From: a virus
Direction: 5' to 3' (one strand)
DNA length: 56,227 nt
Virus record (IMG/VR): IMGVR_UViG_3300031885_000017
Location: 1-56,227 of that record
Position 1 is the first letter of the stretch. Each line of letters starts with the position of its first letter. Below the pieces are notes generated by a model. That model did no database searches, was not told where the DNA came from, and saw only the letters and a program-made list of their open reading frames with translations. Below are positions 31,696 to 56,227 of the stretch, in pieces. Made by a program: the position numbers and the translations under genes.

Positions 31696-32297
31696 TTTGT
31701 GTTTCTCCTCCGCCAGTTGTATAGGGTTAGCGCCGACAGGAACGCGGACCAATCACCGGCGTCATCCTTGTATTGGTAAAGGCGGTACTTGCCATCGGCG
31801 CCGAGCTGGACGGCCCACCGCTCCTTGACTTTTGCCTTGGGATAGAGTTCGTTGTAGGCGACCTGATAAGCCGCCAGTTGGAGTGCCGTTACCGGGTTGA
31901 GTGCGGCGCCCGTCTTGATGTCCAGGACCACGGGCACCCCGCGGAGTTTGCCGATGCGGTCAATGGTTCCGGCGTAGCGATGCCGGGTCGAGTAGACCTG
32001 AACCTCGATACCTTCCGGGATGAACAGGACATCATCCCGGAACTTTACCCAGGCGCGGACGTAGGGTTCGAGGAGCGGATCGGCTTGCATCTCTTCCAGC
32101 GTCAGGGCGTCCCGGTCATAGAGTGCGGTAGCTGTGTGAACCAGGGTGCCCCGCTCTTGGGCCGCGTCCATGATGTCCTTGTCGATCCCCAGGAAGTCAT
32201 TGATGCCGACCATAACCTGGGTGACGCCGGGGATGCGGAGTCCCTTCAGGTAGTAGGAGTGGGTTTGGCTGTCGTAGCGGAAGTCGTCTCTAGGCAT
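31692..32297 (-). CDS. PD-(D/E)XK (RecB/Cas4-like) exonuclease
   Basis: 201 residues from ATG 32297 (MPRDDFRYDSQTHSYY). ERGTLVHTATALYD gives the G-x-x-x-H motif, YAGTIDRIGKLRGVPVVLDIKTG contains the catalytic D...D-x-K core, and LQLAAYQVAYNELYP the Q-x-x-x-Y motif. This is the standard phage single-strand or 5' exonuclease used for recombination. An HNH gene overlaps its start. Confidence 0.85.
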   Translation of the reverse strand: MPRDDFRYDSQTHSYYLKGLRIPGVTQVMVGINDFLGIDKDIMDAAQERGTLVHTATALYDRDALTLEEMQADPLLEPYVRAWVKFRDDVLFIPEGIEVQVYSTRHRYAGTIDRIGKLRGVPVVLDIKTGAALNPVTALQLAAYQVAYNELYPKAKVKERWAVQLGADGKYRLYQYKDDAGDWSAFLSALTLYNWRRRNTK

Positions 32298-33007: not shown

Positions 33008-34070
33008 CCGCGGTCTCCTCCGCCTTCTCATTCGGGTCCGGCCGCCACAACAAAGGCGCTTCTTGTATCTTCTGGAGCAATTCCGGCCGTTCCGCCAAGA
33101 CAGTAGGAAATTGTTTTCGCTGAAACTTGACGCCATCGAGCGAGTACCAAGATCCGGCCTGTGTGACGAGCCCCAGTCGCTCCAGTAGGTCTAGTTGACT
33201 GCTCACGTTGTCCACGCCGTCGATGGCGTAGATGTCAAACAGCCCTTGCTTTCCCTCTGGGGCGATGCTGCTCTTGCGGATCTCGGCCCGCACCGAAATG
33301 CCGACCGGATCATCCCCCTCTTTGATGACGCCGGTGCTCGTGAAGTACACAAGCAGCGAGCCCCAGAAGACCAGGGCACCTTCTCCAGCCATCGTGTTAC
33401 GTTTCATGGCCTTCCGACGCTCCCGGCTCCGCGGATCACCCATGATGTCTAGGTGCTGGCGGAGTTGGTTCACGATGACCAGCGCGATTCTGTACTGGGC
33501 CAGCATCGGCCCCAACCGCTGCATCTCTCGGCTTATCGTTCGGGCCGAGAGTCCCGGTTGAGGTTGGTCTTCAATGGTGGCTTCCAGTTGCTTCTGTGCG
33601 GGCAGCGCCGAGAGCGAATCAATGACGATGGACACCAGACGGGCGGGGTCTTCCTCGCGGACCCACTTTATGATCTCCTCGATGTCCTTAAAGCAGGCCT
33701 CTAAGGTTGTGGGCGTCGGCATGACCAGCCGGGCGGGGATGAGGCCGAGGCGTACACCCCGGTCTCGGCTGTACCGATGCTCGGCGTCGATGAGGATCGC
33801 CAACCCGTCTCGGCGCTGCGTTTCCGCCAAGATGTGATATGCGACGGAGCTTTTCCCGGCCCCCTCCTTGCCGTAGAACACGGTGACACGGCCGACGGGG
33901 ATACCCGGTTGCCCGATGATGTAGTCCAGCATCGCGCATTGGGTACTGATGTAGTCAGCTATGTCCGAGGTGAGGGGTTGAGAAGCGAGCTTTAGCTGAA
34001 ACTTGGCAGCGAGACGCTCCTCAAATGTGCCTGGTGCGTCCTCTGGCGGGGACGCCTTCCTCCGCGCCAT
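33000..34070 (-). CDS. RecA/UvsX-like recombinase
   Basis: 356 residues. Walker A GKEGAGKS at 67-74, catalytic Glu region DAEHRYS, Walker B LVSIVIDSLS near 145, L2-like region NTMAGEGALVFWGS and MDGDPRSRE-type loop before it. Strand exchange on single-stranded DNA, working with the gp32-like SSB (34,195), exonuclease (31,692) and resolvase (30,261). The C-terminus (residues 270-356) replaces the bacterial RecA tail with a short helical segment. Confidence 0.85.
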   Translation of the reverse strand: MARRKASPPEDAPGTFEERLAAKFQLKLASQPLTSDIADYISTQCAMLDYIIGQPGIPVGRVTVFYGKEGAGKSSVAYHILAETQRRDGLAILIDAEHRYSRDRGVRLGLIPARLVMPTPTTLEACFKDIEEIIKWVREEDPARLVSIVIDSLSALPAQKQLEATIEDQPQPGLSARTISREMQRLGPMLAQYRIALVIVNQLRQHLDIMGDPRSRERRKAMKRNTMAGEGALVFWGSLLVYFTSTGVIKEGDDPVGISVRAEIRKSSIAPEGKQGLFDIYAIDGVDNVSSQLDLLERLGLVTQAGSWYSLDGVKFQRKQFPTVLAERPELLQKIQEAPLLWRPDPNEKAEETADV

Positions 34071-54803: not shown

Positions 54804-54833
54804 ATTGTACCAAGGCGACTTCGCCATTTGCAA
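54804..54833 (-). promoter_or_regulatory. Early leftward promoter
   Basis: On the - strand, TTGCAA (54833-54828), an 18-bp spacer and TACAAT (54809-54804, 5 of 6 matches). The spacer holds the palindrome GGCGA-CT-TCGCC (54814-54825), a candidate repressor site between -35 and -10. Confidence 0.6.
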
Positions 54834-54911: not shown

Positions 54912-54945
54912 CGAAGGCACCGGATTTTGGGGTCCGGTGCCTTCG
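54912..54945. terminator. 13-bp perfect hairpin
   Basis: CGAAGGCACCGGA (54912-54924) pairs fully with TCCGGTGCCTTCG (54933-54945) around TTTTGGGG. Neither side has a clean T-tract, though the - strand continues TAATTTC. It lies where leftward integrase transcripts would run into the early promoter, so a terminator role is likely. Confidence 0.55.
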
Positions 54946-55052
54946 ACTCTCTGAAGACGCAGGGTGTATTGTGGCGGAGAAGGCGGCGACCTTCAGACGC
55001 CACCACCCCGGCCTTTGAAGGGAGAGAGCTACATCACGGCATTTATGTTACC

Positions 55053-55094
55053 AAATGTTCACTGGGGATGCAAGCCCCATTTCTGTAAACATTT
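55053..55094 (-). terminator. Nested hairpin after the integrase stop
   Basis: AAATGTT (55053-55059) and AACATTT (55088-55094) enclose a TGGGG/CCCCA stem (55063-55079). It begins 2 nt after the integrase stop. It could be the integrase terminator or, being AT-rich at its arms, a recombinase-arm site. Confidence 0.45.
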
Positions 55095-55096
55095 TC

Positions 55097-55927
55097 CTAG
55101 AGATTATCGGCGGGGGAGTAGAGATCGTGAGCCCGCTGCGCCAGTTCCTCGGCGTAGGCGGCGGTGTAGCGCCGGAGCATCACCACACTCTTCCATCCGC
55201 AGATTTCCATTATATCTGAGTCCTGAGCGCCGAGGCGTTTCATCTGACAAGCGGCCGCCCGGCGGAAGGCATGGACTCCCTTGTGCTCAACCCCGGCCCG
55301 TCGGCAGAGGCGCCGGACGAGCTGGAGGACGCCCGACTCCGTTAGGGGGCCGCGTTCACCCCGCCAGAGGGTGCCGTTGTTGGTGCCCCAAGAGCGGATA
55401 TACTGGCGGAGGGCCTGGAGGGTGGTGGCGCCCAGCGGTACACTCCGGGTGCCGGTCTTACCCGTAACCTGGACCTTTCTGCACTCCCAGTGTATCTCTC
55501 CCATCGAGATCAACTCCCCCTCGCGGACGCCCGTATCATAGAGCGTGAGGATGAGGGCCCGATCCCGGATGTTGGTGCAGGCGGCGAGGAGTTGCCGGAT
55601 CTCTTTGTCTGTGTAGGTGGGCTGGGGCTCGGTGCGAAAGGCGGCCAGCCGGATGCCGGTCGTGGGATCGGAGGCCAGTTGGCCCTCGGCTACCAACCAG
55701 CGGAAGAAGCGCCGGAGGGCGATCTGGGCCTCCCGTAGGGTCTTGGCCTTGCGGCCGTTCTGGAAGACGATGAGGTACTCGCGCAGCAGGCCGGGTGTGG
55801 TCCCCGACAGCTCCCGGCCCCGCAGGTAGAGGCAGAAACGCCGGGCGTCCCGGACATAGTGGTAGATGGTGGAGGGACGGAGCCCCTCTAGTTGCAGTGT
55901 GCGGCCAAAGTCCTCTGTCAGCTCCAT
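55097..55927 (-). CDS. int: Tyrosine recombinase (phage integrase)
   Basis: 276 residues. The N-terminal SAM-like core-binding domain spans 1-95 (RPSTIYHYVRDARRFCLYL). The catalytic domain has Arg135 in DTGVREGEL, Lys157 in TGKTGT, H219-x-x-R222 in GVHAFRRAA, Trp245 in GWKSVVML and the nucleophile Tyr254 in RRYTAAY. Short, without the arm-binding domain of lambda-type integrases. The start codon is 16 bp from a tRNA-Asn 3' half that should be the crossover core. Confidence 0.9.
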   Translation of the reverse strand: MELTEDFGRTLQLEGLRPSTIYHYVRDARRFCLYLRGRELSGTTPGLLREYLIVFQNGRKAKTLREAQIALRRFFRWLVAEGQLASDPTTGIRLAAFRTEPQPTYTDKEIRQLLAACTNIRDRALILTLYDTGVREGELISMGEIHWECRKVQVTGKTGTRSVPLGATTLQALRQYIRSWGTNNGTLWRGERGPLTESGVLQLVRRLCRRAGVEHKGVHAFRRAAACQMKRLGAQDSDIMEICGWKSVVMLRRYTAAYAEELAQRAHDLYSPADNL

Positions 55928-55942
55928 CTCAGACTCAAAGTC

Positions 55943-55996
55943 AGCGGGCGGCTGTTAACCGCTAGGTTCCAGGTTCGAATCCTGGTCGGGGAGCCA
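55943..55996 (+). other. Attachment core: 3' half of tRNA-Asn(GTT)
   Basis: From AGCGGGCGG onward the sequence matches a tRNA-Asn: anticodon loop CTGTTAA with anticodon GTT at 55954-55956, closed by GCGG/CCGC, T-arm CCAGG-TTCGAAT-CCTGG, acceptor strand TCGGGGA, G and CCA ending at 55996. Upstream of 55943 no D-arm or TCCCCGA acceptor strand is present. This is a classical tRNA-type att core, either attP or a prophage end. Confidence 0.85.
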
Positions 55997-56069
55997 ACGA
56001 AAAGCCCCGTCATGTGGCTGCACGGCGGCAGAACCGGGAAATGCAGCCGGATGGCGGGGAACCAGCCCC

Positions 56070-56098
56070 AGCCTAATCTCCTTCCCCCCACCTGTCAA
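56070..56098 (-). promoter_or_regulatory. Leftward promoter pointing at the integrase
   Basis: On the - strand, TTGACA (56098-56093), a 17-bp spacer and TAGGCT (56075-56070; 3 of 6 in the -10). The integrase gene begins 143 bp downstream, beyond the tRNA half, so a transcript from here crosses the attachment core. Confidence 0.5.
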
Positions 56099-56122
56099 CC
56101 CCCAAACAAATACTCATTGGTA

Positions 56123-56153
56123 TTGACAATTCCTCCGCCCCTTCCTCTACACT
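56123..56153 (+). promoter_or_regulatory. Rightward promoter at the window edge
   Basis: TTGACA (56123-56128), then TACACT at 56148-56153 with a 19-bp spacer, or TCTACA with 17 bp. It points out of the window. If the genome is circular it would lead towards the missing packaging and virion genes. Confidence 0.45.
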
Positions 56154-56227
56154 GAGAGTGTAAGGGATGCCTGCTGTTCGAGGGAGGGCCGCGGCGGTGT
56201 AACCACCGTCAACAGTGGGGGCGGCGA

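Follow-up and report, generated by a model that had tools for sequence, protein, structure and literature searches.

The integrase gene of a temperate phage appears to be arranged so that integration would part it from its own promoter. In the window, by which we mean the whole 56,227-nucleotide stretch analyzed here, the gene lies on one side of a tRNA-Asn attachment core, and the strongest promoter-like site facing it, here called P_left, lies on the other. We consider it fairly likely, from the layout of the window and of two related phages, that P_left drives the integrase across attP and is lost to it on integration. The mechanism class is already known, and the geometry described here is a variant of it.

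The attachment site at the right end of the window

The IMG/VR virus record analyzed here as the window lacks end repeats. The virus infects bacteria, probably with Chloroflexota as the host phylum. Two phage contigs were compared with it: G001 (IMGVR_UViG_3300031885_000019, 52,984 bp), which is collinear with the window at ~68 to 91% nucleotide identity and opened at another point, and L018 (IMGVR_UViG_3300031885_001607, 14,665 bp). The phage comparison thus comprises three sequences, two of them from one metagenome. A Chloroflexi MAG, L006, supplied the host-type tRNA-Asn(GTT) reference for the core. When further attP relatives were sought by integrase alignment, by a conserved block, and by terminase, only G001 and L018 were found; L003 and L005 were set aside as relatives, as they have the tRNA core in common but differ in integrase or flanks. 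The features of the window are as follows.

54804..54833, minus strand: leftward promoter-like site for the genes past the integrase (TTGCAA-18-TACAAT, with TG); identical hexamers and spacing in G001 at 32027
54912..54945, minus strand: 13-bp hairpin between the integrase and the next leftward promoter (z -5.4); G001 has a hairpin of other sequence at the same place
55045..55073, minus strand: leftward promoter-like site adjoining the 3' side of the integrase (TTGCAT-17-TAACAT, with TG); matched in G001 at 32270 in hexamers, spacing, and location
55097..55927, minus strand: tyrosine integrase gene, 276 aa (Pfam, PHROGs)
55928..55942, no strand: spacer between integrase start and core, 15 bp, too short for a promoter (sequence, promoter scan)
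55943..55996, plus strand: attP core, corresponding to tRNA-Asn(GTT) in its 3' part, from ahead of the anticodon stem to CCA; 54 of 54 bases identical to L006
56005..56059, minus strand: hairpin with T-rich tail, weakly terminator-like (fold -28.8 kcal/mol; d score -27.8; z -1.4 with flanks)
56070..56098, minus strand: putative promoter P_left, TTGACA at 56098-56093, 17 bp, TAGGCT at 56075-56070 (score 11.2)
56123..56153, plus strand: P_right, divergent promoter-like site, TTGACA, 19 bp, TACACT (score 12.3); TTGACAATTCC kept in G001 and L018
56155..56227, plus strand: conserved block behind P_right, noncoding and possibly structured, truncated at the end of the window (conserved in G001; folds)

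The integrase gene begins with an ATG at 55927-55925 on the minus strand, a start backed by relatives (MELTEDF, MNLTEDF, MDLTEDF), and no clear Shine-Dalgarno sequence was found ahead of it in the spacer. The product matches PF00589 (Phage_integrase catalytic domain; E 9e-23, 81 bits against a cutoff of 27.1) and the PHROG 1 integrase (E 4e-44). PF02899 (SAM-like N-terminal/core-binding domain) begins at residue 6. With such a domain from the first residues, a protein of this length cannot also accommodate a separate arm-binding domain at its N terminus. The integrase is probably transcribed as a separate unit, since the 13-bp hairpin and the two conserved leftward promoter-like sites lie just downstream of it.

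The tRNA-Asn core that the preliminary description had placed beside the integrase was borne out by its identity to the MAG gene, although the spacing given there, 16 bp, is in fact 15 bases. G001 matches the window core at 53 of 54 positions. The core, CCA included, would restore a tRNA-Asn upon integration. The window itself holds no intact tRNA, and an Rfam search of it returned subthreshold tRNA matches at the core, one chance match, and nothing else.

The DNA to the right of the core had been described as either phage or host DNA, the latter implying that the integrase of the prophage is driven from the host. In G001, the integrase and core at ~32.3 to 33.2 kb are followed by a stretch (33247-33376) that aligns to window 56093-56225 at 79% identity. 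From there, the G001 flank runs 13 kb through the terminase region to the homolog of the left end of the window, the major capsid gene lying at 507 in the window and at 47.5 kb in G001. L018 agrees, running from the integrase through the attachment site and the terminase to the same end point as the G001 flank. The map thereby closes to a circle in which the core is flanked by phage DNA on either side, so the window almost certainly ends on the right in the attP of a temperate phage. This synteny refutes the host DNA reading, for which no support was found: two other phage contigs share the right flank and continue from it into phage genes, and the flank differs from the sequence downstream of the tRNA-Asn gene of the MAG, the comparison that had been proposed as a check. 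Host DNA driving the prophage integrase is thus extremely improbable, surviving only if both relatives were misassembled alike.

L018 ends within the gene where the window begins (window 1; L018 14665), with two codons missing between them, and the last 105 bases of the window (56123-56227) are 100% identical to L018 805-909, yet the integrases differ by ~21%. Judging from these sequences, the two contigs perhaps derive from a single phage population in which two integrase/attP alleles occur; alternatively, the rightward -35 element perhaps marks the border of a recombination event.

The promoter-like site facing the integrase

Promoter scores were obtained with a sigma-70 weight matrix of approximate E. 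coli frequencies, and the E. coli-like nature of the matrix is a caveat on them. Some credit is due to the matrix, as other promoters that it detects have identical hexamers in the window and G001, at equivalent places. P_left was the top integrase-facing site in 55928-56227 and ranked 11th in the whole window on both strands. Sites with such a score have a density of about 1 per 10 kb of strand in the window, and 300 bp would be expected to contain ~0.03 of them. The next distinct site scored 5.0. That was also the best score (rank 819) in the spacer and core, where there was no credible promoter. The claim that the only good promoter facing the integrase lies right of the core therefore holds for location (11.2 versus 5.0). 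It does not hold for the -10 element: TAGGCT is poor, with three of six consensus positions, and a simple promoter scanner did not list P_left, so the site is good in its -35 element and spacing only.

Counterparts of P_left were present in both relatives. In G001, TTGACA at 33252 is followed after 17 bp by TATTAG with a TG extension (score 13.4); in L018, TTGACA at 701 is followed after 18 bp by TAGAGT (score 13.1). In each of the three phages, the top integrase-facing site was thus a TTGACA to the right of the core. This element lies 96 bp from the core in the window, 42 bp from it in G001, and 49 bp from the tRNA gene in L018, and the sequence between core and TTGACA has diverged among the three while TTGACA itself has been retained. 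P_left is probably the integrase promoter.

In the free phage, P_left (56098-56070) would transcribe leftward across the core, antisense to the tRNA part, and into the integrase gene, whose product would recombine the core with the host tRNA-Asn gene. Strand exchange at any position in the core would place the integrase at attR, where it would read into the prophage from host DNA formerly lying downstream of the tRNA. P_left would remain at attL behind the restored tRNA, pointing back toward it. All right-hand promoters would be cut off, so the separation would hold whichever of them serves the integrase. The proposal that integration cuts the gene from a right-side promoter is in this respect structurally well supported, by the attP layout and by synteny with G001 and L018. 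A prophage with no phage promoter for its integrase would make less of the enzyme, favoring the integrated state, and the tRNA promoter could not take over after integration because the integrase lies on the attR side. A low integrase level in the prophage is reasonably likely. More tentative, and on balance doubtful, is the further step that the integrase of the integrated phage has no promoter whatever. Such a one-way switch would work by promoter loss alone, with no repressor fusion, gene splitting, or takeover by the tRNA promoter, and excision would have to rely on leakage, on host transcription arising by chance, or on a different integrase.

The preliminary description did not mention the 55-nt hairpin at 56059-56005, followed by CTTTTCGTT on the integrase-coding strand, that lies between P_left and the core. 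This hairpin could lower read-through into the integrase. Taken further, with its T-rich tail in that position, it might end P_left transcripts as a short RNA and shield the prophage tRNA from antisense transcription, leaving P_left of little use to the integrase, which would be read through from leftward promoters farther right; more leftward promoter-like sites do occur there (G001 34102, L018 2592). We consider this unlikely. The hairpin is a weak terminator by the d'Aubenton-Carafa formula, with its d score of -27.8 standing against -4.4 for the host tRNA terminator and +13.9 for a phage terminator lying behind the right-hand block in G001, and it is missing (an alignment gap) in G001, where P_left is strongest. 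Moreover, the integrase leader of ICEKp1 also has terminator-like stem-loops, and its 3'-end promoter still works. Read-through from the far right would likewise be severed by integration, so the main conclusion would hold even then.

P_left and P_right together form an inverted TGTCAA/TTGACA pair, facing each other, in all three phages. Rather than being promoter parts, such pairs in the right arm of attP could be bound by a regulator or directionality factor of the phage, with the integrase expressed from a weak or unusual promoter over the core and spacer; promoters that overlap att sites are common for tRNA-linked integrases (PMC2951348). We regard this as quite improbable. The spacing of the pair, ~24 bp in the window and G001 but ~100 bp in L018, is unlike that of an operator, both TTGACA elements have -10-like partners at 17 to 19 bp, and the spacer and core never exceeded the low score given above. 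An integrase that lacks an arm-binding domain also has no evident need for arm sites.

In window 56123-56227, L004 242-440, and L018 805-935, the rightward promoter-like site is followed by the conserved noncoding block, the ends of which pair. G001 has a strong terminator ~200 nt beyond its rightward promoter-like site. A small phage RNA encoded beside attP by P_right and this block is possible on these features; an Rfam search returned no match for the block.

Comparison with known integration-linked systems

Promoter switches across attP have been demonstrated experimentally in ICEs. When ICEclc circularizes, Pcirc (PMC2892462), a strong promoter that points outward from the opposite end of the element, is brought in front of intB13 (PMC2704930). 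ICEKp1 uses a 3'-end promoter (P3'end) in its excised form and the tRNA-Asn promoter in its integrated form, and ICEclc and ICEEc1 behave as it does (PMC13023037). As in these three elements, a far-end promoter in the window is predicted to face the integrase across attP in the circular form only, and with ICEKp1 the window shares a tRNA-Asn attachment site, stem-loops between promoter and gene, and, as predicted for the window, a bias toward integration. The ICEKp1-type integrase lies on the tRNA side, where the tRNA promoter takes over once the element is integrated, whereas the window integrase lies on the attR side and faces away from the tRNA, with no phage or tRNA substitute for P_left. 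A separate promoter for the integrated state, as in ICEclc and ICEKp1, was found neither in the spacer and core nor, with one exception, on the host side: among 25 tRNA-Asn loci from genomes of the class to which the MAG belongs, 1 had a facing site scoring at least 11 on the weight matrix within 250 bp. Little integrase would therefore be expected in the prophage. The single such locus, L095, was rejected as a prophage end, having an ordinary flank with a tRNA terminator. Unlike the ICEs, the window is a phage, known here from its sequence. If the account given above is true, the switch would extend to a Chloroflexota phage group, with the tRNA promoter excluded, and would provide a simple account of how a short integrase that has no arm-binding domain could be biased toward integration.

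In BPs-type mycobacteriophages, the repressor gene contains attP, which thus separates the integrase from the promoter Prep (PMC4557955, PMC9262239). The window has the same free-phage order of promoter, attP, and integrase, together with a tRNA attB and no requirement for arm sites. Unlike in that type, no credible (repressor) gene spans the core, P_left is ~95 bp from it, and the integrase, in the window as in G001, ends in SPADNL with no ssrA-like degradation tag. On these sequence features, the window phage is outside the BPs-type systems. The archaeal suicidal integrases of the SSV type carry attP inside the integrase gene, and the gene itself is lost (PMC8371274). In both cases integration itself would end integrase function, but the window gene would stay whole and lose its promoter, whereas the SSV-type gene is split.

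A common alternative is represented by intS of KplE1, which has an autoregulated promoter overlapping attL; in the same survey, divergent tRNA-integrase pairs were rare (PMC2951348). The window resembles KplE1 in having a tRNA attachment site by the 5' end of the integrase, but the KplE1 prophage keeps a dedicated, autoregulated promoter in the interval from tRNA to integrase, where the window has 15 bp only.

The L018 design and chromosomal relatives

The attachment region of L018 (477-701) is built differently. It consists of an 18- to 19-bp half-core (AGCGGGCGGCTGTTAACC) and then a complete tRNA-Asn at 571-646, which has an extended -10 element (TGTTATACT) and precedes the right arm. A leftward transcript would need to cross this entire tRNA gene to reach the integrase. 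In the tRNA-dependent lysogeny of actinobacteriophages, a long-core and a short-core phage use one attB, and the long-core sister needs no tRNA (PMC10865867). L018 resembles those short-core phages in having a short core in the anticodon region that would leave the host tRNA unrebuilt, along with its own complete tRNA of that isotype. It differs from them in that its tRNA gene lies inside attP, between the core and the right arm, and in belonging to a Chloroflexota-type phage group. This layout makes L018 a candidate, beyond the actinobacteriophages, for tRNA-dependent lysogeny, and by analogy L018 may share one attB with the window phage as a short-core/long-core pair. The designs offer a natural series for testing: a long core, a long core with a hairpin, and a short core with its own tRNA.

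No prophage of this phage group was found in 400 Chloroflexota genomes; the best integrase, 52% identical, adjoins a tRNA-Met. A chromosomal survey covered 55 loci, of which 20 had no blast integrase match and were excluded from the counts. Among the 28 chromosomal integrase relatives with a nearby tRNA, the tRNA lies 121 to 318 bp from the conserved protein start, and in several of them this gap contains a TTGAC-type promoter; the 15-bp gap of the window group is an exception to this pattern. Six Chloroflexota loci (L022, L024, L031, L034, L047, and L073) carry distant integrase relatives oriented divergently to a complete tRNA, with a TTGAC-type promoter in the interval, a layout described elsewhere as rare. 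Direct repeats are visible in this interval in L022, L024, and L031, suggesting autoregulated integrase promoters.

Altered tRNA-Asn copies were also seen. L110 1501-1569 is a degenerate copy with a changed anticodon loop, in which ARAGORN called no tRNA, beside a TTGACC-17-GATAAT promoter-like site. L116 1501-1546 and L117 1501-1546 are partial copies from the anticodon stem onward, one of them 2 kb downstream of a full tRNA-Asn gene in its genome, and they are likely attachment scars of other elements that used the same attB.
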